Origin: Propionivibrio sp.
GTDB taxonomy: Bacteria > Pseudomonadota > Gammaproteobacteria > Burkholderiales > Rhodocyclaceae
Length of the DNA stretch: 64,000 nt
Reading direction: 5' to 3'
NCBI GenBank assembly: GCA_016705685.1
Contig: JADJLB010000001.1
Span: 496,001-560,000 of the forward strand
Numbering within the stretch: position 1 is the stretch's first letter; the number at the start of each line of letters is the position of its first letter. Under the pieces are notes generated by a model. The model worked only from the letters and a program-made list of their open reading frames with translations. It was not told the DNA's origin and ran no database searches. A program made the translations under genes and the position numbers. Positions 9,211-53,820 of the stretch are shown here, one piece after another.

Positions 9211-10188
9211 TTACTCTGTAACGTCGTCGCTGACTTCTTCATCGAGGTCCAGCGGTTCGCTTAAGACAGCGGCAATGTAACTTTCCGGCAGACGATATTC
9301 ATCGGCCAGTTCTGCGGCGGTTTTAGCGCTGGCGTGAATGGCCGTCAGCCAGCCGTTGAGGCCGGAAGACAGCGAATGCCCGGCCTTTTCTCCCGCACGC
9401 GCCGCGCTGTTGCCCCCTTCGACCGCGTACTTATTGGCATAGCCACGCGGCGTAACCATCAGGCCATGCTTGACAAAGGTGTTCGAATTGCCGATCAGCA
9501 CGGTCGTCAACATGCCAATGTCGGCTTCGCCCATCTTTTCCAGCGTGGTGAATTCGATGCGCTGTTTCGGGCGATAGGCCGATTTGACGATGGCTACCGG
9601 AGTCTGCGGATTGCGGTGCTGCAGAAAGATGCGCTGCGCTTCTTCAATCTGCCGCGTACGGCGGCCGCTTTTCGGGTTATAGAGCGCGACGACGAAATCG
9701 GCATACGCCACGGCATCGAGACGGCGGGCGATGGTTGGCCACGGCGTCAGCAGATCGGACAGCGAAATCGCACAGAAATCGTGGGTCAGCGGCGCGCCGA
9801 CCAGCGCGGCACAGGTGTTGAGCGCCGAGGCGCCGGGAATGATTTCGACTTCGACGTCCGAATCGGGCGTCCAGCCCGCCTGAAAAAGGACTTCGAACGT
9901 TGGCCCGGCCATGCCGTAGACCCCGGCGTCACCGGACGACACCAGCGCCACCTTCTTGCCCATCCGGGCACGCTCGTAGGCTTCGATGGCGCGGTCAAGC
10001 TCTTCCGTCATCGCTTTCTTGACGATTTCCTTGCCGTCCAGCAAGTCCTTGACCAGACGGATATAAGTCGCGTAGCCGATCACGGTATCCGCTTCAGCAA
10101 TGGCGGCACGGGCTCGGGCGGTCAGGTAGTCCTGACTACCCGGGCCAAGACCGATGAGCATGATCTTTCCTGTTTTGTTCGAGGTCAT
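9211..10188 (-). CDS. cobJ: Precorrin-3B C17-methyltransferase (CobJ/CbiH)
   Basis: 325 residues. It methylates C17 during ring contraction of the corrin precursor. Signatures: IMLIGLGPGSQDYLTARARAA, VIGYATYIRLV, VALVSSGDAGVYGMAG, EIIPGASALNTCAALVGAPLTHDFC and a conserved ALYNPKSGRR. The methyltransferase fold ends near residue 260. The remaining residues (AGEKAGHSLSSGLNGWLTA to EEVSDDVTE) are an acidic C-terminal tail longer than in minimal CbiH proteins. The start overlaps the cobE stop as ATGA. In this operon it probably works on cobalt-precorrin-3, since CbiD and CbiG are present and no CobG mono-oxygenase is seen. Confidence 0.92.
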   Translation of the reverse strand: MTSNKTGKIMLIGLGPGSQDYLTARARAAIAEADTVIGYATYIRLVKDLLDGKEIVKKAMTEELDRAIEAYERARMGKKVALVSSGDAGVYGMAGPTFEVLFQAGWTPDSDVEVEIIPGASALNTCAALVGAPLTHDFCAISLSDLLTPWPTIARRLDAVAYADFVVALYNPKSGRRTRQIEEAQRIFLQHRNPQTPVAIVKSAYRPKQRIEFTTLEKMGEADIGMLTTVLIGNSNTFVKHGLMVTPRGYANKYAVEGGNSAARAGEKAGHSLSSGLNGWLTAIHASAKTAAELADEYRLPESYIAAVLSEPLDLDEEVSDDVTE

Positions 10189-16461: not shown

Positions 16462-17257
16462 GGTTGTTCTCCGAATTCTTCTCCAAACCACGGCGAAAGC
16501 GATGCGTAAAGGACGGGTCGTACAGTTTCGAGCGCACCAGGTTGTCCCAGTCGGCCGAGCCCAGGGTCGGGCTGGCGACGATCATGGCCTGGCTCCCGAC
16601 TTTTTCAGCCTGGCATTTCTGCTTGATGTCGGCGAGCGTGCCGCGAATGATTTTTTCCTCGCCCGGCCAGCTGGCTTTCTGCACTACCAGCATCGGCGCA
16701 TCGTCGGCCCAGCCGGCGGCCCGCAGGGCACGCTGGACTTCACCGAGCAGGGTGATGGAGAGGTAGATGCACAGCGTGCAGTGATGGCTGGCCAGCAATT
16801 CAAGGTCTTCGCCGGCGGGCATTGGCGTGCGCCCGGCGACCCGGGTGAGGATCACCGTCTGCGTCACCTCCGGCAGCGTCAGCGTTTCGCCGGCCGCAGC
16901 CACGGCAGCCATGGCCGACGAGACGCCGGGAACCACGGCCCAGTCGATGCCGGCGGCAGTGAGCGGGCGGGTCATTTCGATCAGTGCGCCAAAAAGACCG
17001 GGGTCGCCGGTCTGCAGCCGGACAACGGTGCCATGACGGCTGGTCTGGTCGAGCAGCCAGGCCGTCATTTCATCCAGCGTCATGTCCTTGGAATCGCGGA
17101 TTTCGCACCCCGGCGGGGCGAACTGCGTTGCCGCTTTATCGACCAGCGAACCGGCAAAGAGGATGGCGCCGGATGCTTCCAGCAGTCTGCGCCCCTTGAT
17201 CGTCAGCAGATCGGGATCACCCGGGCCCGCTCCGACAAACCAGACTTTTCCAGGCAT
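16454..17257 (-). CDS. cbiF: Precorrin-4 C11-methyltransferase (CbiF/CobM)
   Basis: 267 residues. It methylates C11 of (cobalt-)precorrin-4. Blocks: VWFVGAGPGDPDLLTIKGRRLL, ILFAGSLVDKAATQFAPPGCEI (the SLVD motif is typical of this family), VVRLQTGDPGLFGALIEM, WAVVPGVSSAMAAVAAAGETLT and TRVAGRTPMP. The tail after residue 245 (PSFTHRFRRGLEKNSENNHG) is polar and overlaps the start of cbiX. A 54-base gap separates it from the cobalt transporter gene cbiO upstream. Confidence 0.93.
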   Translation of the reverse strand: MPGKVWFVGAGPGDPDLLTIKGRRLLEASGAILFAGSLVDKAATQFAPPGCEIRDSKDMTLDEMTAWLLDQTSRHGTVVRLQTGDPGLFGALIEMTRPLTAAGIDWAVVPGVSSAMAAVAAAGETLTLPEVTQTVILTRVAGRTPMPAGEDLELLASHHCTLCIYLSITLLGEVQRALRAAGWADDAPMLVVQKASWPGEEKIIRGTLADIKQKCQAEKVGSQAMIVASPTLGSADWDNLVRSKLYDPSFTHRFRRGLEKNSENNHG

Positions 17258-17311
17258 TAGGTGGTGCTCCAGTGGGTTGGTAACATTTCGCTTCCTTTCA
17301 TGAGGGGCCGC

Positions 17312-18169
17312 TTACAGCAGGGCCAGTAGTTCCCCGTGGGTGCGCGGAGTGCGAGGGGTGCGCTCGTTGGAGAGCGCCCCTTTCGCCATCAAACGGTTAT
17401 GCAACTCCACCACCTTCGGCAGCGGCAACCCGACTGCTGACAAGGCATCGCCGCAATCCGCCAGATCGGCCGCCTCAAGCGTGGCCGTGCAGCGGCCGGC
17501 TGAAATCAGGTGTAAACGATCAGCCCAGCGATAAGCAAAATCGATGTCGTGTGTTGCCAGCAGCAGCGTAATGCCCCGCTCGTGCAATTCATCCAGCACG
17601 ATCAACAATTCTTCCTGCATGCGCTGATCGAGCCCTGCCATCGGCTCATCGAGCACCAGAAGTTCTGGCTCCATGGCCAGCACGCCGGCAATGCAAACGC
17701 GTTTTTTCTCGCCGTAACTCAGGTTGTGCACCGCCTTATTGGCAAATGCCTCCATGCCCACGGCAAGCAGCGCGGCGGCAACACGCTGGCGTACGGCCGA
17801 CTCGGCGAGGCCGAGATTGAATGGTCCAAAAGAGACGTCCTCCTGGACGCTCGCCGAAAACAATTGCCGATCCGGATTCTGGAATACCATGCCGACCTTG
17901 CTGCGTAATTGGCGAAGGCCTTTCCGACCGTAATCGATCGCTTCGCCGTCATAGCGCACAAGCCCCGACTGCGGCTGCAACAGGCCGTTGCAATGCTGAA
18001 ACAAGGTCGTTTTTCCTGAGCCGTTCGCGCCGATCAGGGCATTTCGACTACCGTGCCTGATGATCAGCGTACAGTCGTCGAGACCGATGCCGCCGTCCGG
18101 ATAACTGAAACTGACGTGCTCCAGTTCAAGCAGGTTGCTGTTCGGCGTATTCAATACCGTCGGTTTCAT
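17312..18169 (-). CDS. cbiO: Cobalt ECF transporter ATP-binding protein CbiO
   Basis: 285 residues. Walker A GANGSGKTTLF near residue 43, Q-loop region VGMVFQNPDRQLFSASVQEDVSFGP (a hallmark of ECF ATPases), signature LSYGEKKR and Walker B LLVLDEPMAGLD followed by LLATHDIDFAYRW. It energises cobalt uptake with CbiM, CbiN and CbiQ at the inner membrane. The start ATG overlaps the cbiQ stop. The residues after position 255 (LMAKGALSNERTPRTPRTHGELLALL) form a polar extension with a short TPRTPRT repeat. Confidence 0.93.
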   Translation of the reverse strand: MKPTVLNTPNSNLLELEHVSFSYPDGGIGLDDCTLIIRHGSRNALIGANGSGKTTLFQHCNGLLQPQSGLVRYDGEAIDYGRKGLRQLRSKVGMVFQNPDRQLFSASVQEDVSFGPFNLGLAESAVRQRVAAALLAVGMEAFANKAVHNLSYGEKKRVCIAGVLAMEPELLVLDEPMAGLDQRMQEELLIVLDELHERGITLLLATHDIDFAYRWADRLHLISAGRCTATLEAADLADCGDALSAVGLPLPKVVELHNRLMAKGALSNERTPRTPRTHGELLALL

Positions 18170-18912
18170 GACAGCACGACGGCCAGCAAGACCAGAACAC
18201 TGCCGCCCGCGGTGGCGAATGCGACATCGCGGCGCTTGTTGGTGAAAACCGGTTCGAGAAAGCGCAAGGGACCATCGTTATTGCGCGACTGTGCCGCGAC
18301 ATGCAAGGCGTGGGCGCGTTGCCAGACTTGCAGCGTCAGGTTGGCTGCCAGATCGCCGAGCGAACGTAGCGCCAGTCGCGACGTAGCGTAGCCCAGCCGG
18401 GCGGACTGCGCGGTCAACGTGTCGTGTACGGCTTCCGAAAAGACGAACAGCATGCGATAGCTGAGGACCATGATTTCGAGCAGCGCCTCGGGGGTTTTCA
18501 GACGGCGCAGCATGGCGATCAGGTCGATCAACGGGGTCGTCAGGACAAGGAACAGCAGTGCCGACAGCGCGCCGAGAGAGCGAGCACTAACTTCGGCGAC
18601 TTGTTGCATGCCGGTCGGCGTCAGATGGAACGACAGCGCTTGCGTGTCGCTATTCAGGTTCAGTGAAAACGCCAGCGACAGACAACTGATGCCAAGAAAG
18701 AAGAGGGCGGGGGTGGCTACCCGCAGATAGCGTCCGAACGGGATCCCTGCACCGACCAGCGTGGTTGTGGCGATGAGCAGGGCGACCGCAATGGCGGCGA
18801 TCGGAGCCCTCGCCGCAAAGGCCGCAATGAAGCCGCCCAGAGCAAACAACCCCTTGGCCGCCGGCGCAACCTGCCGCCAGCGGTTGGCATAGGCCGATTG
18901 TTCAATCAACAA
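18166..18912 (-). CDS. cbiQ: Cobalt ECF transporter transmembrane protein CbiQ
   Basis: 248 residues with about five hydrophobic segments. The N-terminus ([26 protein letters not shown]) matches the start of CbiQ proteins, and the coupling-helix region SYRMLFVFSEAVHDTLTAQSARLG near residue 140 should contact CbiO. No ATG is available at the expected position; TTG codons at 18912 or 18909, inside the end of cbiN, are the likely start, which implies coupling to cbiN. Partner of CbiO, CbiM and CbiN in Co2+ import. Confidence 0.88.
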   Translation of the reverse strand: MLIEQSAYANRWRQVAPAAKGLFALGGFIAAFAARAPIAAIAVALLIATTTLVGAGIPFGRYLRVATPALFFLGISCLSLAFSLNLNSDTQALSFHLTPTGMQQVAEVSARSLGALSALLFLVLTTPLIDLIAMLRRLKTPEALLEIMVLSYRMLFVFSEAVHDTLTAQSARLGYATSRLALRSLGDLAANLTLQVWQRAHALHVAAQSRNNDGPLRFLEPVFTNKRRDVAFATAGGSVLVLLAVVLS

Positions 18913-19264
18913 GGTTGTTTATCTCGTCAGGCGTTTCCGATTGCTTTTGCGCTTGGCGGGACATTCTTTCGCGAGTCACCGAAACACCCAGGTAGTAACC
19001 GATAAAGCCAGCCCCCAGTGCCGCCTGCAAGGCAAACAGCAAGGAAGCGATTTCAGCGCTGGCCGGTTGCATCAGCGGCTCGAACCACGGTGTATAGCCC
19101 GGATCGATCTGGCCGATCATGTCTTTCGCCTTGTTGTCCGCACCGGCAAAAATCTCAACCTGTTTACCGTCCGCGCCGGCCGCAGGTCTCTGCACCAGCC
19201 ACAGCGGAATCAACGCGAGCAGAAGAACAACACCCAGCAGTATGAGGTTCTGATGGCGCTTCAT
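18902..19264 (-). CDS. cbiN: Cobalt transporter accessory protein CbiN-like
   Basis: 120 residues with an N-terminal membrane helix ([18 protein letters not shown]), a periplasmic stretch containing [26 protein letters not shown], and a second helix ([22 protein letters not shown]). This two-helix layout and the DxKA...I..I.PxYxPWF.P motif are those of CbiN, which helps load cobalt into CbiM. The polar tail after residue 100 ([21 protein letters not shown]) is a bit longer than in enteric CbiN. ATGA overlap with cbiM and overlap with cbiQ show a compact operon. Confidence 0.85.
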
Positions 19265-19938
19265 ACACGTACCTCCGTGCGGCTGAGGAGGTTCATGTCC
19301 TGCAATTCCCTGGCGTTGAAGCGTTTCAGGGCGTTGAAGATGACTACCGTCAATAGCCCTTCGCTGATCGCCAGCGGGATCTGGGTGATCGCAAAAATTC
19401 CGGCAAACTTGGCGAAAGAGGCGACAAAACCGCCTTCCGGGTCAGGAAACGCCCAGGCCAGTTGCGCGGAAGTGGTCACGTAAGTCAGTAGATCCGCCAT
19501 GCTGGCGGCAATGAACACGCTGACCGCGAAGGAAAGCTTGAGACGGCGAGCCAGGCCAAACAACGCCGCCGCCGCGAACGGCCCGACAATCGCCATCGAG
19601 AAGGTGTTGGCGCCTAGCGTGGTCAATCCGCCATGGGCCAGGAGCAAGGCCTGAAAGAGCAGAACGACCATGCCGATCGGCGCCATGGCAGCCGGGCCGA
19701 AAAGGATGGCGCCCAGCCCGGTACCCGTCGGGTGCGAACAACTGCCCGTGACCGATGGCAACTTCAGGGCCGAAAGCACGAAGGTGAAAGCCGCAGCGAC
19801 GCCCAGCAACATGCGCTGCTCCGGGTTGTCGCGAATCCGTTTTTTCACGGCGTAAATGCCGTAGGCTACGAAAGGCGTGGAGGCGATCGTCCAGCCGAAG
19901 GCATGTTCGACGGGTAAGAAGCCTTCCATAATGTGCAT
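19261..19938 (-). CDS. cbiM: Cobalt transporter substrate-capture protein CbiM
   Basis: 225 residues, mostly membrane-spanning. The family N-terminus MHIMEGFLP is present and provides the metal-binding site at the very N-terminus, so the start at ATG 19938 is firm; GTAGGAGGGAATC precedes it. Other blocks are [23 protein letters not shown] and [22 protein letters not shown], both conserved in CbiM and NikM. Cobalt rather than nickel is inferred from the corrin operon it leads and the riboswitch above it. First gene of the minus-strand corrin operon. Confidence 0.93.
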
Positions 19939-20407: not shown

Positions 20408-20854
20408 TCAGCAGCGTGCCCCTGCCGCACACCCCGCCAGCGCATCGCTCGGCACAACGACTGAACGGCCTTCCTGGCTCCAGGCGTTCATCCCGCCACT
20501 GGCGTTGTAGACGGTTTTGTAACCTGCCTGCTGCGCCAGAAACTGCGTCGCTTTGGCCGAACGTTTGCCGCTGCGGCAGATCAGTATGACGGATTGATCC
20601 ACGGTGGCGATTCTTTTCACTTTCTCAAGCCAGGCCGGCGGATCGGACCGGCCCTGCGCATCGAAATAGGTCAGCAGCTTGCTGCCGGGAATGACGCCGC
20701 TCTCCTTCCATTCGCCTTCGGTACGGATATCGATCACCGGAACGCCGCTGGCGGCGAGGCGGGCCAATTCGGCGTTGTCGATGTTCACCACTTCGGCGTA
20801 GGCGCCGAATGCGGCAAGAAGAAACAAGGCGAAAGAAATTGTCTTTTTGATCAT
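20408..20854 (-). CDS. Periplasmic rhodanese-like protein
   Basis: 148 residues. An N-terminal signal peptide (MIKKTISFALFLLAAFGAYA) points to the periplasm. A single rhodanese domain follows: VPVIDIRTEGEWKESGVIPGS, then the active-site loop ILICRSGKRSAKA with the persulfide-forming cysteine, and YKTVYNASGGMNAW. Rhodaneses carry or transfer sulfane sulfur; the acceptor here is unknown. The C-terminus has two extra cysteines (LAGCAAGARC), which might affect redox state. It sits 65 bases after mch on the same strand and could be read through from that operon, but no functional link is evident. Confidence 0.85.
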   Translation of the reverse strand: MIKKTISFALFLLAAFGAYAEVVNIDNAELARLAASGVPVIDIRTEGEWKESGVIPGSKLLTYFDAQGRSDPPAWLEKVKRIATVDQSVILICRSGKRSAKATQFLAQQAGYKTVYNASGGMNAWSQEGRSVVVPSDALAGCAAGARC

Positions 20855-20919: not shown

Positions 20920-21975
20920 TTATCCGATCGGCATCAACACCGTATAGTCGAAGTCGAGGAGAACGCTCGGGTCGTAGCTGCCGTCGCCGAGTTTGTAAGG
21001 AAAGTCGGCACAGGGGCGGTCTTTGGTCGCCACGGTGCGCAGACGGAGCGCACCCAGATCCTTGCGGCCCGGCAGGGCCATCTTGTCGATCACCGACGAC
21101 CAGGCAAAGATAGTATCGCCGGCAAAGGCGGGAGAAACATGCCGGCCGGCATTGATCGCCGCTATGCTGAAGGCATTTGCTAACCCATTGAAAGAAAGTG
21201 AACGCGCCATGCTGATGACGTAACCGCCGTAGACGATGCGGCGGCCGAAACGCCCGGACTTCTCGGCAAACTGGTTGAAGTGCACCCTCGCCGTGTTCTG
21301 GTAGAGGCGGGTGGCCATCATGTGTTCGCTTTCCTCGATGGTCATGCCGTCAACGTGATCGATCTGTTCGCCGACCTGGTAATCGTTCCACAGGTCGGTG
21401 CTGCCAGCCCGGGTGCAGTCATACTGATCGGCCTTGAAGTCCGTCGGTACGATCAGATCGGCCGCCGCGACCGAATCGGGAAGCTCGGGCACAACCGCTG
21501 CCGGTGCCGGGGACGCCGGATCTTTCTTGCGGACCATGACCCAGCGACAGTAGTCGAGCACCATTTCTCCGCGCTGATTGGTACCACGCGAGTTCACATA
21601 CACGACCCCGGTTTTTCCATCGCGATTCTCCTTGAGGCCGATCACCGTCGAATCCGAGCTCAGGGTATCCCCCGGATAGACCGGCTGACCGAAGCGTCCC
21701 GCCGCGTAGCCGAGATTGGCAATGGCATTCAGCGAAATGTCCGGCACCGTCTTGCCGAACACGACGTTGAAGGCCAGCATGGAGTCCACCGGGGATCGCG
21801 GAAAGCCCAGGCGGAGAGCGAAGGCATCGGCGGAACCCACCGCAAAACGAGTGCCGGTCAATGCGGTGTACAGCGCCACATCGCCTTCGGTCACTGTTCT
21901 CGGCGTCGCATGCGTAATCTTCTGCCCGATGCTGAAGTCCTCAAAGTAGTTGCCCAACCTGTTCTTTGTGCTCAT
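20920..21975 (-). CDS. mch: Mesaconyl-CoA hydratase (beta-methylmalyl-CoA dehydratase) Mch
   Basis: 351 residues from ATG 21975 (MSTKNRLGNYFEDF), preceded by GGGAG. A double hot-dog (MaoC-type) hydratase. The N-terminal half has NYFEDFSIGQKITHATPRT and NLGYAAGRFGQPVYPGDTL. The C-terminal half has the hydratase region RLYQNTARVHFNQFAEKSGRFGRRIVYGG and ISMARSLSFNGLANAFSIAAINAGRHVSPAFAGDTI. It interconverts beta-methylmalyl-CoA and mesaconyl-C1-CoA, the step after Mcl condenses glyoxylate with propionyl-CoA. I recognise it as very close to Chloroflexus Mch; relatives also act in the ethylmalonyl-CoA pathway. The adjoining mct, meh and smtAB favour the 3-hydroxypropionate bi-cycle type. Confidence 0.9.
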   Translation of the reverse strand: MSTKNRLGNYFEDFSIGQKITHATPRTVTEGDVALYTALTGTRFAVGSADAFALRLGFPRSPVDSMLAFNVVFGKTVPDISLNAIANLGYAAGRFGQPVYPGDTLSSDSTVIGLKENRDGKTGVVYVNSRGTNQRGEMVLDYCRWVMVRKKDPASPAPAAVVPELPDSVAAADLIVPTDFKADQYDCTRAGSTDLWNDYQVGEQIDHVDGMTIEESEHMMATRLYQNTARVHFNQFAEKSGRFGRRIVYGGYVISMARSLSFNGLANAFSIAAINAGRHVSPAFAGDTIFAWSSVIDKMALPGRKDLGALRLRTVATKDRPCADFPYKLGDGSYDPSVLLDFDYTVLMPIG

Positions 21976-22007
21976 TCGATTTTCACTCCCGTTTGCTGAG
22001 TCAAGCC

Positions 22008-23051
22008 CTACCAACCGTATGCGGCGGCCAGTTCCGGATCCTTTTTGGCGACCAGTTGCGCCAGATCGACAATGACCTTGGCCTGTTTCCAGGTGGCGTC
22101 ATCCTGCATCTTGCCGTCGATCGTCGCCACACCGCTACCATCGGGCATCGCTGCCAGGATGCGTTTGGCGAACAGCACTTCCTTCACATCGGGGCTGAAA
22201 ACGCGTTTGGCAATGGCGATTTGATTCGGCGCCAACGACCAGGCGCCCGAACAGCCCATCAGGAAGGCATTGCGGAACTGCGATTCACAGGCCGCTTCGT
22301 CTTTGAGATCGCCAAACGGCCCGTAGAACGAATGCAAGCCATGCGCCACGGCGGCATCGACCATGCGTGCAATCGTGTAATGCCAGAGATCCTGTTGATA
22401 AAAGGCCCGCTGGCTCTTGCCTTCTTCTTCGTCAACCAGAACGCCGTAGCCTGGATGTCCGCCACCCACCCGGGTGGTCTTCATGCCGCGCGAAGCCGCC
22501 AGATCGGCCGGGCCGAGGCTCAAACCGTGCATGCGCGGACTGGCGCCACAGATGGCTTCGACATTGGTCACGCCCTGGGCCGTTTCGAGCAGGGCGTGCA
22601 GCAGTATCGGCTTCTTGATCGCGTACTTCGCTTCGAGCAACGAGACATACTGATCGACAAAATGAATATCCCACGGCCCCTCGACCTTGGGGATCATGAT
22701 GACATCGACCTTGTTGCCGACGTGCTTGATGATCTCGCTCAAGTCATCGAGTATCCAGGGGCTGTTCAAGGCATTGACGCGCACCCACATGCCGGTGTCG
22801 CCGAAATCGTGGTTGCTCAGCAACTCGATAAAACCTGCCCGCGCCGCGTCTTTGGATTCGATCGGTATGGCGTCTTCCAGGTTGCCGCACATGACGTCGC
22901 ACTGTTTGGCCGTCTCGGGCGCCTTGGAACGGATCTTTTCGATGTGCGGCGGAAAGAAATGAATCATGCGTTCCGGTCTCACCGGTAGTTCGCGCAAGGG
23001 TTGTGGCGCACCGATGGCAAGCGGCTTGTAGAAGTGAACGGGTAGCTTCAT
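22008..23051 (-). CDS. mcl: Malyl-CoA / beta-methylmalyl-CoA / citramalyl-CoA lyase Mcl
   Basis: 347 residues from ATG 23051 ([18 protein letters not shown]), with AAGGA upstream; the longer frame is not coding. A CitE-like TIM-barrel lyase. Visible blocks are [31 protein letters not shown] (acidic Mg2+ site), [41 protein letters not shown] (catalytic Glu) and [21 protein letters not shown]. The Chloroflexus enzyme of this type is trifunctional: it splits malyl-CoA to acetyl-CoA and glyoxylate, condenses glyoxylate with propionyl-CoA, and splits citramalyl-CoA to acetyl-CoA and pyruvate. Trifunctionality here is inferred from similarity and context. Confidence 0.9.
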
Positions 23052-23118
23052 GGCATTTTCCTTAGTCAATACAGAAGTGGTAGTTACGGTGGAAGCAATG
23101 GTGCGGCGCGCGATGTCT

Positions 23119-24339
23119 TCACACCGGGCCGGCGACGATACCCTGATCGTGTAGCCGACCGACTTCGCCCTCACTCATGCCGAGGACTTCGAGCAGAATC
23201 TGGTCGGTATGCTCTCCGAGTACCGGTGCCAGCTTCGCCGGCAGTCTTGGAACGGAATTGAAATCGAGTGGCGTGGCGGGTGCCAGATAGTTTCCGATAC
23301 CCGGTTGTTCGACCATCGAGAACATCGGATTATCAACCGAGCAATCCGGGTCGGTGGCGATGGCTTCCCGCACGCCGCGGTAAGGGCCCCAGGTGACGCG
23401 GTTGGCGTCGAGGATACGCGCGGCCTCGGCCATCGTGCGGGCCTGGAACCAGGGCTCCATGAGCGCGGCAAGCTCCTGGCGGGCACGAAAGCGATTGCCC
23501 TCGTCGGTAAGATCAAGGCCAAGCCGGACACCAAGTTCGTTGATCGCCTCCTGCAGGCCGGTGGCCTTGGTCAGGCAACGCCACTGCATATCGGTCAGAC
23601 CGACGATCATCAGGCGTTTGCCGTCGAGCGTTCTGAAATCGCGCCCGAACGAGCCATACAGATAGTTGCCGTACTTGGGCCGGTCCGCATTGTTGACCAT
23701 CACTTCAGCCAGCAATCCAAGATTGCCGAGCATGGCCAACGCCACGTCCTTCAACGACAGACGTATCAGCTGCCCTTCGCCGGTGAGACGACGATGCCTT
23801 TCGGCGGCGAGAAGGCCAATCGCGATCATGTGTCCGCTGGTGTAATCCCATGCGGGAAACGCGTCATTCACCACCTCTGATGAATTGATCGGCCCGTTCA
23901 AGAAAGGCAGGCCGACCTGAGGGTTCACCGTGTAATCGACCTCCGAACCGCCATCGCGACGACCGAGAAAGTTGATCATGATCAGATCATCGCGATGTGC
24001 TTTCAGCGTTTCGTAGCTGAGCCAGCCCTTGGCCGGAAAATTGGTGCTGAACAGACCGGCGTTTTCACCCGGCGCACAGATCAGCCGGGTCAGTACCTCT
24101 TGTCCTTCCGGCTTGCGGAAATCGATGGCAATCGAGCGTTTGCCCTTGTTCAGGCCGGCCCAGAACAGGCTGTGCTTGCCGTCCAGGGTCAACGGCCAGC
24201 GACCATTGTCCAAACCGCCGTCGATCGGGTCGAAACGTATGACATCGGCACCCAGTTGCGCGAGAGTCATGCCACCTAACGGCGCGGCGACAAAAGCTGT
24301 GCCTTCGACGACACGCAAGCCCTTGAGAATTCCTTCCAT
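23119..24339 (-). CDS. mct: Mesaconyl-CoA C1-C4 CoA transferase Mct
   Basis: 406 residues from ATG 24339 ([13 protein letters not shown]); AGGTGG lies six bases upstream, so it beats the GTG at 24348. A class III (CaiB/BaiF) CoA transferase: [29 protein letters not shown] at the N-terminus, [18 protein letters not shown], and [24 protein letters not shown], whose Asp is the expected acyl-carrying residue. Mct moves CoA inside mesaconate from C1 to C4. It differs clearly from the two SmtAB-type genes next door (no GYGQTGPY block; [16 protein letters not shown] in its place), which supports a separate substrate. Activity is assigned by similarity and neighbours mch and meh. Confidence 0.87.
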
Positions 24340-24380
24340 CTTGTCCACCTATCCTGACGTAGCGCTCAGCTGACGCGGTT

Positions 24381-25607
24381 TCAGATCACACGCTTTTTGC
24401 GCAATTCTTCGATCTCCTGCGGCTCAAGTCCGAGCAGACCGGAAAGTATTTCATCCGTGTCTTGCCCGAGTTTCGGGCCGAGATGCTTGATGCGCCCCGG
24501 CGTTACCGAGAGGCGTGGCATCACCGACGGCACAATGACCGTTTCGCCGATGTCCGGCTCGTCGATGGCCACCAGATTGCGTCGCGAGTGAAACTGCCGG
24601 TCGCCGAAAACATCGGCAATGCTGTTCAGCGGGCCGGCGGGCGCACCCGCGGCAAAGCAACGGGCCAGCAGCTCTTCGCGAGGCAGCGAACCGCACCAGT
24701 CGCGTACGATCTCGTTGACGTCATGACGATGCTCCATGCGCACCTTCTGATCGCCAAAAACGTGCGGGGCTGCCAGTTCGGGGCGGCCCATGGCGGCCGC
24801 CAGCCGCTCGAACAGTTTGTCGGTCACACACGAAATGGCCACCCACTTGCCGTTGTCCTTGGTCGGAAAATGCCCGTGCGGGCAGGCAAAATCGTTATGC
24901 GTCGGCCCGTGCCGCTCGCGCACCGTTCCGTACATGCCATAGGCCGGCGCCAATTCGTCGGTGCAGCGAAACACCGATTCATAGAGTGCAGCGTCGATGT
25001 ACTGTCCGCGGCCGGTGCGTTCGCGGTGGCGTAGCGCCATCAAGATGCCGATGCAGCCGTAGAGTCCGGTCAGATAATCGCCAATCGTGGTCGACCCCGG
25101 GGTGACCGGCGTTCCCCTCGGCATGCCCGAGAGAAAAGCGATCCCGCCAACGGCGTGCGCGACACGGGCAAAACCGGGCCGATCCTTATAGGGGCCGGTC
25201 TGTCCATAACCGGTAACACGCAACATAATCAGACGGGGATTGATTTTATGCAGCACATCCCAGCCAAGACCCCATTTTTCGAGCGTTCCGGGCCTGAAGT
25301 TTTCGCACAGCACGTCCGAGTTCTCGATCAGTTTCTTGAATAACTCGACGCCTTCGGGCAGGTGCAGATCCAGCGTCACCGATTTCTTATTACGTGCTTC
25401 GCTGAGCCAGGCCAGCGTATCCTTGCGCTTGGTCGGCGTACCAAAGTAACGCATGGGATCGCCGCCTTTGGGATTTTCGACCTTGATGACCTCGGCGCCA
25501 AATTCACCGAGAATGCAAGCGCTGTAAGGCGCAGCAATGACCGTGGCCGCATCAATAACACGAATGCCTTCGAGCGGTAGCCTGGTTTCGGTCTGCTCTG
25601 TGTTCAT
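24381..25607 (-). CDS. smtB: Succinyl-CoA:L-malate CoA-transferase, beta subunit
   Basis: 408 residues, class III CoA transferase. Blocks: [79 protein letters not shown] and the catalytic aspartate region [17 protein letters not shown] near residue 180. The [11 protein letters not shown] start and overall sequence match what I recall of Chloroflexus SmtB. Together with SmtA it should make L-malyl-CoA from malate and succinyl-CoA. AGGATTCCC precedes the ATG. The alpha/beta assignment between this gene and the next is from memory and is the least certain part. Confidence 0.8.
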
Positions 25608-25631
25608 GGGAATCCTCGTGCGATGAAATGA

Positions 25632-26954
25632 TCAGATGATCTTGCGTTGCCGCAAGCGCTGAATTTCCGGTCCTGTAATTCCGAGCAACTCGCGCAGAAC
25701 TTCGTATGTCGCGTTACCCAGTGGTGGCCCGAGATTGGAAATCCGGCCGGGCGTCTCAGACAGTGTCGGCACGACTCCCGGAATCACCACATCGCCCACA
25801 CCATCTTCTTTGATATGCGCCAGATTGCCGCGGGCGAGGAAGTGTTCGTCCTCAAAGATGTCTGCAATGCTGTTGAGTTTGCCGATCGGCACTTCACCAT
25901 CGATACAGAGCTTCATGATCTCATCCCGAGTCAGCGAACCGACCCATTCAATGACGATCCTGTTAACTTCATCGCGTGCCGCCAAGCGTTTGCGCTGATT
26001 TCCATAATACTCGGCCGAAGCAAGTTCCGGCCTTCCCATCGCTTCCGCAATGCGCTCGAACATCTTGTCCGTGGTACAGGCAATGGCAACCCATTTGTCA
26101 TCGATGGTGCGGAAATGTCCATGCGGGACGGCAACGAAACTGCCCGCGCCTTCACGTTGACGAACCTTGCCGAACAGGCCGTAGGCCGCAGCGATCTCAT
26201 CCATCTGACGGAATACGGCCTCGTAAATTCCGATGTCGATGATCTGCCCTTCGCCAGTGGCTTCACTGTGTCGCAAGGCCAGCAGAATGCCGATGGCTCC
26301 ATAAAGGCTGGACAGGTAGTCACCCAAAGGGGTGGTGCCGGGGACTACCGGGGTTTCACCCGGGAAGCCGGCAAGGTAGGACAACCCTGCGAAGCCATGG
26401 GCTATGTGCGCGAATCCCGAACGCGAGCGATAAGGCCCGGTCTGCCCATACCCGGAAACACGGAGCATCACCAGCGCGGGATTGGCCTTGCTCAGCACAT
26501 CCCAGCCGAGCCCCCATTCCTCCATCGTGCCGGGCCGGAAATTCTCGATCAGGACATCGGATTTGGCGACCAGTTTCAGGAAAAGCTCGACGCCTTCCTG
26601 CTGACGGAGGTCCATGGTCACCGATTTCTTGTTGCGGCCTTCGCTCAGCCAGGCCAGCGTCGCATCGTGGCGCTTCGACGGTGTACCGAATCTTCGCATC
26701 GGGTCGCCGTTGATCGGGTGCTCGACCTTGAGAATCTCTGCGCCGAACTCGCCAAGCATCGAAGCCGCATAGGGGCCGGCAAGGAAGGTCCCGACGTCGA
26801 TGACACGAATGCCGCTCATCGGCAAATTTTCTGTATCTGGCGAGCGATCCTGCTCCGAGCCCTCCTGCAACGCATCAGCATTCGTACCTGAAGCGCTGGC
26901 TGACGTTTCCTCTGCAGCGGCCGCAGATTTCGTGCTTCCAGCCCCTTTTTTCAT
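25632..26954 (-). CDS. smtA: Succinyl-CoA:L-malate CoA-transferase, alpha subunit
   Basis: 440 residues from ATG 26954 (GAGGAGCAACT just upstream). It is a class III CoA transferase closely related to the next gene, so the pair looks like an ancient duplication. Blocks: [80 protein letters not shown] and the aspartate region TTPLGDYLSSLYGAIGILLALRH. About 45 N-terminal residues rich in Ala, Ser, Thr and acidic residues precede the fold and are absent from the partner. The pair should activate L-malate with CoA from succinyl-CoA. Probable first gene of the minus-strand operon. Confidence 0.8.
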   Translation of the reverse strand: MKKGAGSTKSAAAAEETSASASGTNADALQEGSEQDRSPDTENLPMSGIRVIDVGTFLAGPYAASMLGEFGAEILKVEHPINGDPMRRFGTPSKRHDATLAWLSEGRNKKSVTMDLRQQEGVELFLKLVAKSDVLIENFRPGTMEEWGLGWDVLSKANPALVMLRVSGYGQTGPYRSRSGFAHIAHGFAGLSYLAGFPGETPVVPGTTPLGDYLSSLYGAIGILLALRHSEATGEGQIIDIGIYEAVFRQMDEIAAAYGLFGKVRQREGAGSFVAVPHGHFRTIDDKWVAIACTTDKMFERIAEAMGRPELASAEYYGNQRKRLAARDEVNRIVIEWVGSLTRDEIMKLCIDGEVPIGKLNSIADIFEDEHFLARGNLAHIKEDGVGDVVIPGVVPTLSETPGRISNLGPPLGNATYEVLRELLGITGPEIQRLRQRKII

Positions 26955-27193
26955 AGTTGCTCCTCTCGACAGCAGTGCTTTGAAACGCTTCAATCACTCT
27001 AACCCGCGCCAAGCCGGGCTGCGCAATATAACAAAACAAAAAATCAATAGCAAATGAGGAAATCATCTGGCCAAGCGCAGTTTATTTTACTGTCCGGCGG
27101 TCATCGAACACGAGTTTAAGCGTAACTTGAGTTCAGAAACCGGCTGTGTTTTACTTGCCAACCTTACCCGGAAACCCCGAAAGGAATAGCTCA
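26955..27193. promoter_or_regulatory. Divergent control region between smtA and meh
   Basis: 239 bases, locally AT-rich around 27025-27065, separate the divergently transcribed smtA and meh genes. It must hold both promoters. I see ribosome sites for each gene (AGGAG for smtA, GAAAGGAAT for meh) but no palindrome strong enough to name an operator, and no regulator gene is adjacent. Confidence 0.5.
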
Positions 27194-28042
27194 ATGACCG
27201 ACTCGATAACCGATTACGCTCAATGGATCGGCCGTAAGGAAATCACCGACGACGACCTGGGATTGTCGCCGACACTGGCTGCGGCAGCGACGCTCAATGA
27301 CCAGGCCACCCGCTTTGAAAGCGGAAGTGCACTGCCGCCGTTGTGGCATTGGTTCTACTTTCTTCCCAAGGCACCCCAATCGCAGCTCGATATTGACGGC
27401 CATCCAAAACGCGGCGGGTTCATGCCGCCGATTCCTTATCCGAGACGGATGTTTGCCGGTTCGCGTATGACATTCCATCGACCCTTGGTCATCGGTCAGC
27501 CCGCCCGCCGCGAAGCGGTGATCCGCGACATCCAGCAGAAATCGGGCCGCTCCGGATCGTTGGCTTTCGTTTCAGTCGTCTGCAGCTATTATCAGAACAA
27601 CCAATTGTGCATCGAGGAAGAACAGGACATCGTCTACCGCGAACCCGGTCCGACGGTTCCCAGCCCGCAGGTCGTCGCCTGGCCAGCCGCCCCGGAAAAT
27701 GCCTGGACCCGAATCGTGACGCCCGACCCGAGACTGCTGTTCCGCTTTTCGGCACTGACCTTCAACGCTCACCGGATTCACTATGATCGCCCCTACGCCA
27801 CCGGCGAGGAAGGCTATCCTGGTCTGGTGGTGCACGGCCCTCTGACGGCCGTATTGTTGATGGAGCTGGTTCGGCACAGCGCTACGCGTCCGGCACGCAC
27901 ATTCAGCTTCCGCGGTTTGGCACCCCTCTTCGATTTGGCGCCGTTTCGCCTGGTTGGCGTACCCGACGACGGGAAAGTGTCGCTTGAGGCTCATGGGCCG
28001 GACGGCAAAACCGCCATGAGCGCAAGCTGCGAATTCGCGTAG
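27194..28042 (+). CDS. meh: Mesaconyl-C4-CoA hydratase Meh
   Basis: 282 residues from ATG 27194 (MTDSITDYAQWIGRKEI), with GAAAGGAAT upstream. It belongs to the FAS1-type/HTD2-like hot-dog hydratase group. The N-terminal half contains PPLWHWFYFLPKAPQSQLDIDGHPKRGGFMPPIP and PRRMFAGSRMTFHRPLVIG. The C-terminal half carries the hydratase motif RFSALTFNAHRIHYDRPYATGEEGYPGLVVHGPL (Asn, His and Arg of the hydratase 2 site). It should hydrate mesaconyl-C4-CoA to (S)-citramalyl-CoA, the substrate for cleavage by Mcl. It is transcribed away from the rest of the module. Other members of this family act in lipid pathways, but the context supports Meh. Confidence 0.85.
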   Translation: MTDSITDYAQWIGRKEITDDDLGLSPTLAAAATLNDQATRFESGSALPPLWHWFYFLPKAPQSQLDIDGHPKRGGFMPPIPYPRRMFAGSRMTFHRPLVIGQPARREAVIRDIQQKSGRSGSLAFVSVVCSYYQNNQLCIEEEQDIVYREPGPTVPSPQVVAWPAAPENAWTRIVTPDPRLLFRFSALTFNAHRIHYDRPYATGEEGYPGLVVHGPLTAVLLMELVRHSATRPARTFSFRGLAPLFDLAPFRLVGVPDDGKVSLEAHGPDGKTAMSASCEFA

Positions 28043-28066: not shown

Positions 28067-28975
28067 TCACTTGAAGACATCGCGTTCAAACATCTCAGCG
28101 AGCACGCGATCGACGCCCATCTGCCAATCCGGAAGGCTCAAACCGAAAGCGGTTTGTAACTTGCGGGTGTCCAGGCGTGAGTTGAAGGGTCGTTGCGCAG
28201 GTGTCGGATAGTCGCTGCTCGGTATGGCCACGATAGCCTCTCGCGCGACACGAACAGGTTGTTCCGCCCGACGGGCTTGTTCGATCACGTATTGTGCATA
28301 ACCATGCCAACTGGTATTCCCTTCGGCGGCCAAATGATACAGTCCGCCAAGTTGAGGGCTCTCCTGAACGGCTCGCAAGGCATGTGCTGTCACGTCAGCC
28401 ACCAGCTCGGCACCGGTCGGCGCGCCAATTTGGTCGTTTATGACCCTAAGATGATCGCGTTCGAACGCCAGCTGCAGCATGGTCTTGGCAAAATTCTGGC
28501 CGCGTGCGGCATAGACCCAACTGCTGCGAAAGATCAAATGCTTCGAGCAACGGGCGACGGCCAGCTCGCCCTGCAGTTTGGATTTCCCATAAATACTCAA
28601 GGGACCGGTGACATCGCTTTCCTGCCAGGGCTTTTCACCGCGCCCATCGAATACATAGTCGGACGAGTAGTGCACCAGCCAGGCACCCAGTTCTTGCGCT
28701 TCGTCGGCAAGTATGCCGGGTGCAAATCCGTTGATCCTTTGCGCCAGTTCCGGCTCGAGCTCGGCCTTGTCGACAGCCGTATAAGCCGCAGCGTTGACGA
28801 TAACGTCGGGTTTCAGACGCCGAATCGTGCCGGCCAGGCCGGCCCGATTGGTCAAATCGCCGCACAGTCCACCGTCACCCTCGCGGTCCAGTGCGATCAC
28901 CTGGCCCAACGGCGCCAGACTACGCTGTAGTTCCCAACCGATTTGACCGTGTTTGCCAAACAGCAGGATTTTCAT
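28067..28975 (-). CDS. rfbD: dTDP-4-dehydrorhamnose reductase RfbD
   Basis: 302 residues from ATG 28975 ([20 protein letters not shown]). A short-chain dehydrogenase fold with a GxxGQxG nucleotide loop, [18 protein letters not shown] (typical of RmlD/RfbD), [12 protein letters not shown] and the catalytic YGKSKLQGE motif. It reduces dTDP-4-dehydrorhamnose to dTDP-L-rhamnose for LPS or other surface glycans. Its ATG overlaps the rfbB stop as ATGA. rfbA and rfbC, needed for the complete pathway, are not in the window. Ends 24 bases from the convergent meh. Confidence 0.93.
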
Positions 28976-30039
28976 TCGACCCTCTCTCCGTAATTTTTCT
29001 CGATCCATTCTCTGTACGTGCCCGACTGTACGTTACCAACCCAGTCCTGATTGTCAAGATACCACTGCACAGTCTTGCGAATGCCCGTGTCAAAGGTTTC
29101 CTGTGGCCTCCATCCAAGATCGCGTTTTATTTTGCCGGCGTCGATGGCGTAACGACGATCATGGCCGGGGCGATCGGTCACGTACGCAATCTGCTCACTA
29201 TAGGCCTTGCCATCGTCGCGCGGACGCATCTCGTCGAGCAAATCGCAAATGGCATGAACAATGGCCAGATTCGTGTTCTCGTTCCATCCACCGATGTTGT
29301 AAATCTCGCCAAGTCGTCCGTTGGCGAGAACAGTTCGCAAAGCGGAACAATGGTCGGCGACGTACAGCCAATCACGGATTTGTAGTCCGTCGCCATAGAC
29401 CGGCAGGGGCTTGCCAGCCAACGCATTGACGATCATCAGTGGAATCAGTTTTTCAGGAAACTGGAAAGGGCCATAATTGTTCGAGCAATTGGTCGTTAGA
29501 ACGGGCAGGCCGTAGGTATGGTGATAGGCGCGCACCAGATGATCGGAGGCGGCCTTTGACGCCGAGTAGGGACTGTTCGGTTGATACGGATTGTTTTCCT
29601 TGAAGGCCGGATCGATAGCGGATAACGAGCCATACACTTCGTCCGTCGACACATGCAGAAATCGAAATGCCGATTTTTCGGCAGCACTCATCGCTGAGAA
29701 AAATACGCGCACGCCTTCAAGCAGCTTGAAGGTGCCAACGATATTGGTCTCGATGAACTCACCAGGGCCGTGAATCGAACGATCGACATGGCTCTCGGCG
29801 GCAAAATTGATTATGGCGCGCGGCCGGTGTTTTAGAAGCAGCCCCTCAACCAGCGCCTTATTTCCTATATCGCCATGAACGAAAGCGTAACGCGGATCGC
29901 CGGCCAGTTCGAAGAAATTTTCAAGGTTTCCGGCGTAGGTCAGCTTATCCAGGTTGATGACGGATTCGTCGCTTTCGCGAAGCCAATCGAGGATGAAGTT
30001 GGCGCCGATGAAGCCGGCACCTCCGGTTACCAGAATCAT
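28972..30039 (-). CDS. rfbB: dTDP-glucose 4,6-dehydratase RfbB
   Basis: 355 residues. It makes dTDP-4-keto-6-deoxyglucose from dTDP-glucose using bound NAD. Blocks: [61 protein letters not shown], the catalytic [23 protein letters not shown], and [19 protein letters not shown]. All are diagnostic for RmlB/RfbB. It leads a short two-gene rhamnose unit with rfbD, divergent from the LPS core genes waaC-waaA 100 bases away. Confidence 0.95.
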
Positions 30040-40016: not shown

Positions 40017-43000
40017 TCAGACATCCACCGCCAGCAATGCCACGGGAAAATAATTCAGCAGCTCTCCCACAGCCAGATGATCGGCTGCTGCGTGGGTTTC
40101 GCCGCTCAGCACATTGAACCACGGCAGAGAAGCGAGTTCGGGCGAAAATTCCAGCCGCGTATCGCCCCACGCCCTGAGTCCTAACGGCAAGGTATTGATA
40201 TCACCCGACAAGCGAAGCGGAAGACGAGGTACCAGGGCAACCAGTACGCGCACGCCAACGCGCCGGGCAAAAGCACAAACGTGAGCGGCGCTCTGACCGC
40301 TGACCGTAAGCGGCAGATACTCGCCATCGCGAAACACCTCGGGCCAGCGTTGGCGCAGCATCAGGGTTTGCCACAACGTGTAGAGCTTGATGCGGCCATC
40401 GGCCATTTCGTCCACCAAGGGTTGCAAGTTCTGCCGCCACTGCGGCTTTGGTACGGCAACGCGATTCTTCACATCGGCCAGCAATTGGCGACGCTGGGTG
40501 AAATCCACCGGGCGCCGGTTGTCCGGGTCAACCAGGTTGAACTGCCACAACTCGCAACCCTGATAAATGTCCGGCACTCCCGGCGAGGTCAGCTTGATCA
40601 AGGTCTGGGCCAGGCTGTTCAGCAAGCCGTAACGGGCAATCGGCTGAACCATGGTCACGAAATCCGCCATGAACATGTTCTTCTCGCCAGGCGTGAGCAA
40701 CGCCTGTACAAAGTCGCTCATGGCCGCCTCGTAGTCGACGTTCACATTGGCCCAACTGCTGTGCTCCTTGGCTTCGCGCAAGGCCTTTATCATGTAAGCC
40801 TGAATACGCTCACGGAATTCGGTGAGTGCCCCCCCGCTCGGGGACGTCAGCGGCCAAGCGCCGATAAGCGTCTGATAAAGCAGGTATTCATCGTTGCGAG
40901 ACGGTGCACTTGAACCATCGACCATGCGCTTGCGTCCGCGATTCAAACGACTCCAGCGCTTTAACATCAACTTCCACGCTGCCGGCATTTCGGATAAGAC
41001 ATTGATTCGCGCACGCACGTCTTCGGAGCGTTTGCTGTCGTGGGTTGAGGTAGCCAGCATGGTGTGCGGCCAACTGGCGGCGCGGATGCGCGTCGCGGCG
41101 TGGAAGGCGGCGACGGAAACCCCAAACCGCCGCGGTTCGCCGCCCACGTCGTTGAGCGAACTCAAACGGTGGTAACGGTAAAAGGCCGTATCCTCCACTC
41201 CCTTGGCCATGACCGGCGAGGAGAACTGCTGGAATTTCATGGCAAAGGCTTCGACCGGTTCCCGGAAAGCGGCGCTGCGACCATACGCGATTTCGGTGGT
41301 GAGTACAGCGTGGAAGAACTCGTAGATACCGGTATCCGCCGCCGGGCTGCGTTTCTTCGCCACTGCCAAGGCCCAGCCGATGTGCCGGCGATCATCGGCG
41401 GAAAGCTCTCCGCCCGCCACATAGCTGCGGTATACGGGGAAACAGGCCACCACCTCGATCAAGGCATTGCGCAGACCGTTGAGGGTAAAGTCGCAGGTGT
41501 CGCGGCTGGCGGCGGCAATCCGTGAAAGACGGGTAGCCAGTACGTTGAGCTCGCCGGCCAGGGCCGTGTTCATGATGAGCTTTTTGGCTTCGTAGGCGAG
41601 CGTCTCAAAGTCGTCGCTGGTTTCCGTAAAGCTCTCGTAGATGCGCGTCATGCGCCGTTCGGCTGCGCCATCCACGAACAGAGCATTGGCCAGATTGGAA
41701 AAGCGATAGCCGGTGGCACCATGTATCGGCCAGTCGTCAGGCAAACGCTCATGGTCGGCGAGAATCTTCTCGATTACCAGATACATCGGCAGCGATGCGC
41801 CAGGCTCAAGGGGGCCACCACCAACGGCTTGTTGCAGGCGACGAAAATACCCTGCCGGATCGTAGAGGCCATCCGGATGGTCCAGGCGCAAGCCGTCTAC
41901 CTTCCCCTGGGCCACAAGATCGAGCACCAAACGGTGCGTGGCGTCAAATACGGCGGGCTCCTCCAAGCGCAAACCAGCCAGGTCATTGACGTCAAAAAAG
42001 CGGCGATAATTGATCTCGTCGGAGGCGACGCGCCAGTACGCCAAACGGTACCCTTGGAGCTGGATCAACGCGTGCAACCGGTCAAAACTAACTGTGTCTC
42101 CGGCTCGGCCGTTAAATTCGGCCAAATTGTCGGCGATATGCCGGATGATGTCCGGACAACTCTCGCATAGCGCGGCCAGGTGGCGTTTGTGTACCTCCTT
42201 GTCGCGCTGGCGCTCGGCAATGACGGCCGGCAAGGTCTCAACACGCGCCGGCAAGCGGGCAAAGGCGGTGAGCAGCGTTTGCAGTTCCACGTAGTGCACA
42301 TGGTTCTCACCCAGAATGTCGGCAAGACGTTCGCTCTGGTACCCGACAATATAGGGGTAGGTTGCCGGATCCGCCGGAAGCCGGTGCTGATGATAAAAAA
42401 TGCTGAACTCGCCGCGCACCGCGTCAAAATCAAGACGTAATTCGCCACGTTCAAGTATGGTGCCGTAGTGGTCCCCCAGCAGGGGCAGCAGCACTTTGCC
42501 TCGAAGTTGGGGGTTGAGTGGCTCCCAATCGACATCGAAGAAGGCGCCCCACTCCGAAGCCTGGCCATTCTCCAGCACATCCAGCCACCAGGCATTGTCG
42601 GCGCCCATGATGCCCATATGGTTGGGAACGACGTCGAGGATTTGACCCAGGTCGTGCGCCTTGAGAGCCGTGACAAAATCCTCGTAGCTCTGCGTGGTCC
42701 CAATTTCCGGGTTGAGGACGCTGTGATCGACAATATCGTAACCATGGGTGCTGCCGGGACGTGCTTTCAGGTAGGGCGAGGCATAGCAATGGCTGATCCC
42801 GAGTTCGGCCAGGTAGGGCACCAGCTCGGTGGCCTGGGCGAAGGTGAAGTCCCGGTTGAATTGAAAGCGATAGGTGGCGCGAGGTATCACTGCGGTGCGG
42901 CGGGGCAGTGCCACTTCGCCATGCCGCAATGGCGTGTTGCCGCGCTCGCGTCGTAGTGCCTCACCGAGGGCGTTGAAGCGCTCATCGCCACTCCAGTCTT

Positions 43001-45158: not shown

Positions 45159-45169
45159 GTACAGGTTTC

Positions 45170-49130: not shown

Positions 49131-49151
49131 GGTATTCCTTCTATGCGCTTT

Positions 49152-50375: not shown

Positions 50376-50397
50376 GAGTTTTCTCCTTGATGTAAAT

Positions 50398-53751: not shown

Positions 53752-53820
53752 TGTTCTTCTCCACTCGAAACAGCTTGTCAAATTCGCGATTGCTGCAGTT
53801 CTCTAGGTTAGCGATCAGGT

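Follow-up and report, generated by a model that had tools for sequence, protein, structure and literature searches.

The six enzymes of the second half of the 3-hydroxypropionate bi-cycle of Chloroflexus and Roseiflexus together convert malate, succinyl-CoA and propionyl-CoA into succinate, pyruvate and two molecules of acetyl-CoA, with neither loss of CO2 nor a redox step. The ethylmalonyl-CoA (EMC) pathway (ccr, ecm, mcd, mch, mcl) shares with this route the intermediate mesaconyl-C1-CoA. Here we describe a gene cluster of the former kind in Propionivibrio sp. The window, as we call the whole stretch of 64,000 nucleotides that was analysed (contig JADJLB010000001.1, positions 496,001 to 560,000), carries at positions 20920-28042 the genes mch, mcl, mct, smtB and smtA on the minus strand and a divergent meh on the plus strand. 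All six frames are intact, and the gene order, strands and positions given in a preliminary description of this DNA were borne out. Partial bi-cycles have been reported in Kentron, Thiosymbion, Competibacter and Accumulibacter, and their transfer discussed (PMC6593406); the Accumulibacter clusters that the preliminary description mentioned are thus already in print.

The closest counterparts are the Chloroflexota loci, which hold the same six enzymes in the same order with the same divergent meh, at 65–82% identity. Unlike Chloroflexus and Roseiflexus, the host is a relative of Accumulibacter with isocitrate lyase, malate synthase and, elsewhere in its genome, an EMC cluster that is broken as assembled. 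The window cluster differs from the EMC pathway in its Chloroflexus-type Mcl and in lying apart from the EMC genes, which adjoin the cluster in relatives and as assembled encode a disabled pathway here. The Accumulibacter partial bi-cycle falls into one clade with the window cluster (support 100/100); however, full-length ccr is present in 11/11 named Accumulibacter genomes, whereas in the window genome ccr lies in pieces on another contig, and smtAB, kept in the window, is missing from 6 of the 11 named Accumulibacter loci. Competibacteraceae loci contain a different set of genes (Mct ∼60%, Mcl ∼31% identity). Gene clusters for itaconate and methylsuccinate degradation likewise end in the cleavage of citramalyl-CoA, and the window Meh resembles itaconyl-CoA hydratases; since the dehydrogenase of the methylsuccinate route yields mesaconyl-C4-CoA directly (PMC12290011), Mct would be unneeded there.

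We favour, with moderate confidence, the view that the cluster represents the bi-cycle's mesaconyl-CoA module, used for heterotrophic co-assimilation, and that its EMC partner has been separated from it and recently disabled by frameshifts. The genes are the following, with the likely starts of Mcl, Mch, SmtA and Meh taken from alignments with solved chains and relatives.

20920..22014 (likely start 21975), minus strand: mch, mesaconyl-C1-CoA hydratase (PDB 4e3e and 8hgn; identity to Chloroflexota proteins)
22008..23051 (open reading frame starts at 23174), minus strand: mcl (PDB 6kin/4l7z; six active-site residues)
23119..24348, minus strand: mct (TIGR04253; identity to 8apq/7xkg; catalytic and pocket residues)
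24381..25607, minus strand: smtB, specificity predicted (Pfam CoA_transf_3; 74–79% identity and order as in Chloroflexota loci)
25632..26954 (likely start 26954), minus strand: smtA, named by gene order (Pfam CoA_transf_3; 76–82% identity to Chloroflexota loci)
27194..28042 (likely start 27194; open reading frame from 27146), plus strand: meh, mesaconyl-C4-CoA hydratase (PDB 8huc/8khg; identity to Chloroflexota proteins)

The window Mct scores 784 bits against the NCBIfam equivalog TIGR04253 (2-methylfumaryl-CoA isomerase), above the curated cut-off of 725. It is 77% identical to PDB 7xkg from Roseiflexus and 75% identical to 8apq from Chloroflexus, and possesses equivalents of both the catalytic Asp165 and the pocket residue Arg47 (roles as given in PMC9813914). 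The best PDB matches of Mcl are the Chloroflexales lyases 6kin (675 bits) and 4l7z (660 bits), with only 189 bits for 4l9y of Rhodobacter sphaeroides; an EMC-type origin of mcl was ruled out by this pairwise comparison. Glu60, Asp61, Arg92, Glu157, Asp184 and Asp318, the active-site residues of the Chloroflexus enzyme (PMC3832036), are all conserved. Mch scores 570 bits against the Chloroflexus protein 4e3e and 465 bits against the EMC-pathway enzyme 8hgn of Methylorubrum, and so by itself separates the two types only weakly; it is 67–72% identical to Mch of the Chloroflexota clusters. A grouping of mch and mcl with EMC enzymes, which the preliminary description had named as an outcome that would speak against it, did not emerge by pairwise score, Mcl lying clearly and Mch mildly nearer to Chloroflexus. 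SmtA and SmtB are family III CoA-transferases in the order found in Chloroflexota loci; their assignment, like that of Meh, is based on solved relatives and conserved order, and their substrate specificity is predicted. The best PDB matches of Meh, 8huc and 8khg, reach 239 bits, and its identity to Meh of the Chloroflexota clusters is 65–71%.

The locus therefore combines an Mct equivalog and a Chloroflexus-type Mcl retaining its active-site residues with co-clustered Mch, Meh, SmtA and SmtB. All ten window genes scanned with family profiles lie in single frames. The same six-gene order and orientation recur in several phyla, which argues that the cluster is not a chance assembly. Comparisons with profiles, solved structures and Chloroflexota loci also support the six family assignments and the likely chemistry proposed earlier, and the six enzymes are predicted to act on the CoA esters named here.

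In the proposed route, SmtAB would transfer CoA from succinyl-CoA to malate, and Mcl would cleave the resulting malyl-CoA to glyoxylate and acetyl-CoA as well as condense glyoxylate with propionyl-CoA. Mch would dehydrate the condensation product to mesaconyl-C1-CoA, Mct would shift CoA within the molecule to give mesaconyl-C4-CoA, Meh would add water to form citramalyl-CoA, and Mcl would finally split the latter into pyruvate and acetyl-CoA. Isocitrate lyase may provide a second source of glyoxylate. The preliminary description had the organism assimilate glyoxylate and propionyl-CoA without either the glyoxylate shunt or the EMC pathway. Neither absence was upheld: the genome encodes isocitrate lyase (PF00463, 438-aa frame) and malate synthase (PF01274, 561-aa frame), by which absence of the shunt was ruled out, and an EMC cluster, albeit broken as assembled, is present on another contig (C12). 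Among the other routes that had been suggested for a genome search, aceA/aceB and the methylmalonyl-CoA mutase gene mcm were found as intact frames and ccr only in pieces.

No match to Ccr above the cut-off was obtained in the window genome, the two best being two pieces of one gene on C12. Relative to the copies in G334 and G339, two genomes of the same genus, and in the related genome G291, this ccr occupies two frames and ecm three; mcd occupies three frames and the DUF6986 gene two (references G334 and G291), and ech two, with stops (reference G334 only). Intact ccr, ecm and mcd, by which an EMC pathway would be recognised, are thus not found on C12 as assembled, where sequence error is possible. 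Codon alignment to G334 places two in-frame stops in mcd and one in ech; those of mcd probably sit in its altered 5' part, as the matched pieces contain none. The quinone reductase, ETF-QO, EtfA and phaJ-like genes on C12 are open, as is the meaB-like gene, which stops a few codons short of the G339 and G291 copies.

Five of the seven EMC-cluster genes are thus broken within ∼9 kb, against none of the six module genes, each of which lies in one frame relative to the references (Mct relative to G334). The ∼9.1 kb of EMC genes contain 13 frame-breaking gaps, or 7 when the count is restricted to frame changes in matched pieces; equal decay, under a neutral assumption, would be expected to leave ∼9.6 (or 5.2) in the 6.7-kb module, and none was seen. 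The ratio of nonsynonymous to synonymous substitution rates (dN/dS) relative to G334 is 0.012–0.088 for the six module genes and highest of all for mcd (0.108) and ech (0.126). This ratio mainly reflects the time before the breaks, and the absence of breaks in the module is the stronger point. That all six module genes are open while the EMC half appears disabled suggests that the module is used independently of EMC-derived mesaconyl-CoA.

The two modules are neighbours in relatives. G334 carries, in this order, ccr, meaB-like, ecm, mcd, DUF6986, ech, phaJ-like, mch, mcl, mct, smtB, smtA, meh and partial rfbD. In G291 and in seven of the named Accumulibacter loci, the EMC genes are instead found at the meh end, although L032 and L040, which belong to these seven, show no meh. 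The Accumulibacter locus L033 has the EMC genes inverted, ccr and phaJ being closest to meh, and in G339 the modules are on two contigs, so that adjacency cannot be read. Altogether, EMC genes fall inside the fetched flank in 8/11 named Accumulibacter loci, and the other three genomes have a full-length ccr elsewhere. That the modules adjoin in no fewer than three arrangements suggests that they are tied by function and not by shared descent alone. Among 28 genomes of the genus, ccr was found in 3/3 carriers of mct and 0/25 others, and among the 61 of the family sample in 2/2 and 0/59, the window genome being counted each time; the plain chance of such overlap is 3e-4 and 5e-4, respectively, uncorrected for kinship. 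In the window the cluster is flanked by two other genes.

28067..29008, minus strand: rfbD, dTDP-4-dehydrorhamnose reductase (NCBIfam NF007440; 68% identity over 101 aa to the partial frame of G334)
20408..20854, minus strand: rhodanese-domain gene at the mch end (Pfam Rhodanese)

The partial rfbD of G334 likewise follows meh, at the contig end, with the EMC genes on the far (mch) side. Where the window has the rhodanese gene, G334 (L139) instead has the phaJ-like MaoC gene and the EMC genes. Since C12 keeps the flank with ETF-QO, quinone reductase and ccr and the window keeps the rfbD flank, the arrangement fits a single cut of a G334-like cluster. In the ancestral state the module would have adjoined the EMC cluster; here a break between phaJ and mch would have parted the two, and frameshifts would recently have disabled the EMC genes while all six module genes stayed open.

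Three side observations concern these loci. The DUF6986 protein (480 aa; L129 10451-11831 on C12 and L139 4145-5587), an EMC-cluster member in G334 and Accumulibacter loci, has weak Pfam matches to HpcH/HpaI and malate synthase, and its gene has a lower dS to the G334 copy (0.18) than the rest of the genes compared. Neither smtA nor smtB lies between meh and mct in six Accumulibacter loci (L026, L028, L029, L030, L034 and L036; ∼320–460 bases between the matched parts of meh and mct) and in L064 of Gemmatimonadota, and L040 has just a short smt match; the tree described below suggests several separate losses in Accumulibacter. In G291 (L111 13411-15253), mch is followed by two genes that by eye resemble pyruvate/2-oxoacid:ferredoxin oxidoreductase.

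In order to get insight into the distribution of the cluster, we compared genome samples at several ranks. Among 274 genomes of the class, 6 contained an Mct-like match above 500 bits and only the window genome passed the cut-off; carriers of mct numbered 2/61 in the family sample and 3/28 in the genus, the window genome included in each. A scan of named genomes returned at least 593 stretches, of which 558 among the matches listed encode relatives. Within the best 80 of these 558, clusters of the same order were found in Accumulibacter, Chloroflexota, Gemmatimonadota, Rubrivivax- and Methylibium-like Burkholderiales and Woeseiaceae. A tree of the six proteins, read as unrooted and weak in its deep branches, was constructed from 48 loci that carry three or more of these genes, after removal of duplicates. 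One clade (100/100) unites the window with G334, G339, a named betaproteobacterial metagenome-assembled genome (L068), 11 named Accumulibacter and the Accumulibacter-like G291, which belongs to a different genus of the same family group as the window genome. The other Burkholderiales group with most Gemmatimonadota (100/100). An 84-row tree of Mct recovered the first clade (100/99).

Horizontal transfer, which the preliminary description proposed, is likely and may have run in either direction relative to Chloroflexota, but a single donation from Chloroflexus to all Betaproteobacteria was ruled out by the two separate Burkholderiales clades. Published gene phylogenies have the Chloroflexi, too, acquiring the module by transfer (PMC6593406). 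G+C content shows no clear shift that would point to recent arrival: it is 58.8% in the cluster, 58.1% in the window, 61.3% in the left flank and 55.4% in the right one.

The presence of Ccr was then compared across 50 named genomes chosen from the best 80 loci, which are drafts of unstated completeness. Ccr above the cut-off was found in 24/50: in 12/12 named genomes of the Accumulibacter clade, in 0/20 genomes with Chloroflexus-type clusters outside it, and in 12/18 genomes that have Mct without Chloroflexus-type mcl and mch. With G334, G339 and G291 added, full-length ccr is present in 15/15 clade relatives and broken only in the window genome. Sixteen of the 20 outside loci hold all six genes; in L037 and L042 the locus runs into a contig end, while L058 has one smt gene and L064 none. 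Given the apparently broken EMC half and the similar clusters outside the clade in 20/20 genomes without detected ccr, the module here probably converts propionyl-CoA, glyoxylate and malate into pyruvate and acetyl-CoA; the substrates and the direction of flux we infer from gene content, similarity, order and co-occurrence.

It must be considered whether the breaks in the EMC genes are real. If the frameshifts were local assembly or sequencing errors, the organism would work as Accumulibacter does, with mesaconyl-C1-CoA from Ccr, Ecm and Mcd feeding either Mch, towards glyoxylate and propionyl-CoA, or Mct and Meh, towards pyruvate and acetyl-CoA. Several observations point this way and weigh against recent loss. 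The dN/dS values of the broken ccr (0.042) and ecm (0.047) are as low as those of intact genes, so the breaks are either very recent or not real, and ccr is kept throughout the clade relatives. Several breaks are one-base changes in short single-base runs, as expected of sequencing error. On C12, etfB (L128 15198-16033), which lies beside etfA and ETF-QO ∼4.5 kb from ccr, is frameshifted as assembled, and the end of the contig at 1–10 kb (L150 1-9800) has few long frames and apparently broken genes (EamA-like and SpoIIE-like fragments). No RNA genes were found at the Rfam threshold in this 1–10 kb, by which ribosomal RNA was rejected as the cause of its poor frames; an IS21-type ATP-binding gene is located at 16593-17381 (L150). 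Such damage beyond the EMC genes fits patches of poor sequence and wider erosion alike. A control of coverage by open reading frames of at least 200 aa ranked the EMC stretch 10th lowest of 33, thus not singling it out, and a homology control on 400 kb of G359 gave just 2 comparable genes from 307 open reading frames and was not used. The parting of the modules could itself be an assembly misjoin.

Errors of this kind would, however, have to strike five of seven EMC genes within ∼9 kb while sparing the eight glycogen-metabolism genes immediately upstream on C12, which lie in one frame each (the first cut by the stretch edge), as well as the open EtfA, ETF-QO, quinone reductase and phaJ-like genes, the meaB-like gene up to its last few codons, and the ten window genes. 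Nor would single indel errors be expected to give an altered 5' end, as in mcd, or stops such as those of ech. We therefore consider an intact EMC pathway unlikely, though a serious contender, and retain recent loss of the EMC half.

The module might instead run mainly in reverse, making glyoxylate and propionyl-CoA out of pyruvate and acetyl-CoA, in the manner of a citramalate cycle serving polyhydroxyvalerate storage. Malyl-CoA lyases are reversible, and Rhodospirillum rubrum has been proposed to operate such a cycle (PMC8307300). On the other hand, the Chloroflexus lyase is reported to have made citramalyl-CoA only in high excess of pyruvate (PMC3832036), the retained smtAB fits glyoxylate derived from malate, and methylmalonyl-CoA mutase is another possible source of propionyl-CoA, which together leave the reverse direction quite improbable. 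Equally doubtful is a module that is merely an unused leftover of the EMC supercluster, not yet broken: its partner genes do look broken and its low dN/dS mostly predates the breaks, but none of its own six genes is damaged, against five of seven in the EMC cluster, and clusters of this kind persist in all 20 genomes outside the clade without detected ccr.

The relatives that retain both modules raise the question of what Mct and Meh do beside an EMC pathway. We tentatively suggest, as a possibility rather than a favoured conclusion, that they form a second, pyruvate-forming exit of this pathway in Accumulibacter relatives and in Alphaproteobacteria with ccr, mct and meh (Defluviicoccus, Roseospira); the window genome would then be a natural case of EMC loss, with the propionyl-CoA/glyoxylate duty left. 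Crotonyl-CoA and CO2 would be converted, by way of mesaconyl-C1-CoA, mesaconyl-C4-CoA and citramalyl-CoA, to pyruvate and acetyl-CoA, the net outcome being formation of pyruvate from acetyl-CoA and CO2. If so, stored polyhydroxybutyrate could be turned into pyruvate and further into glycogen without isocitrate lyase. The lyase of R. sphaeroides forms citramalyl-CoA reversibly, in large pyruvate excess (PMC3832036), so that such an exit would need only the addition of Mct and Meh. The loss of smtAB in 6/11 Accumulibacter loci also fits a supply of mesaconyl-CoA from the EMC pathway rather than from malate. Against the idea, L064 of Gemmatimonadota, with no Ccr match, lacks smtAB in its locus as well, and the Accumulibacter loci L032 and L040 show no meh.

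Eight loci with Mct but without Chloroflexus-type mcl and mch (L045, L046, L051, L053, L055, L057, L099 and L104) all come from genomes with Ccr, and six of them include a Meh homologue. Six are labelled as, or are members of, Alphaproteobacteria, one is from Gammaproteobacteria and one is an unlabelled record close to Defluviicoccus. Ccr was not found in the genomes of six further loci of this kind (L054, L076, L079, L086, L095 and L103). In a set of loci from Porticoccaceae, Marinobacter and other Gammaproteobacteria (L086, L089, L092, L094, L095, L100, L102 and L103), an Mct of ∼60% identity lies beside acyl-CoA dehydrogenases that are 55–61% identical to the EMC methylsuccinyl-CoA dehydrogenase of G334; no Ccr was found in the three of these genomes that were tested (L086, L095, L103). 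The Mct-acyl-CoA dehydrogenase loci possibly represent a methylsuccinate route via the C1-CoA ester.

The EMC pathway of Accumulibacter has been described as a source of propionyl-CoA and glyoxylate (PMC12604563, 2025), in a paper whose main text contains neither 'mesaconyl' nor '3-hydroxypropionate'. PMC8956781 treats the pathway as a source of propionyl-CoA and mentions mesaconyl-CoA once, and for Defluviicoccus it has been presented as a route to malate and succinyl-CoA in a main text without mention of mesaconyl-CoA (PMC9041414). A natural pyruvate exit of the EMC pathway was not found described in the accessible parts of three openly licensed PubMed Central papers dealing with this pathway together with citramalyl-CoA, mesaconyl-C4-CoA or the transferase. 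While the kind of cluster itself is already known, we found no earlier description of the two-module neighbourhood of the Accumulibacter clade with one module apparently freshly broken, as here, and this looks new. Relatives in which both modules adjoin, one genome whose carboxylating half looks newly broken, and unrelated genomes in which only one module was found make up a comparison set. With it, one can test what Mct and Meh do in heterotrophs and whether they provide a pyruvate exit of the EMC pathway. Models of carbon and redox balance in phosphorus-removing sludge may miss a route.

Other features of the window and genome were also noted. Cobalt uptake genes are located beside the cluster at 17312-19938 (CbiM by Pfam, with CbiQ/CbiO-like neighbours by eye), with apparent cobalamin genes further to the left (by eye), and a cobalamin riboswitch (107 bits) occurs on C12 at L130 17108-17293. 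Two glycogen/trehalose clusters, one in the window at 40017-53781 (by eye) and one on C12 at L128 26-14701 (Pfam), are in keeping with a glycogen-storing organism. Finally, a tRNA-Arg predicted by ARAGORN at 9876-9970 of the window is contained in a same-strand open frame and is probably spurious.

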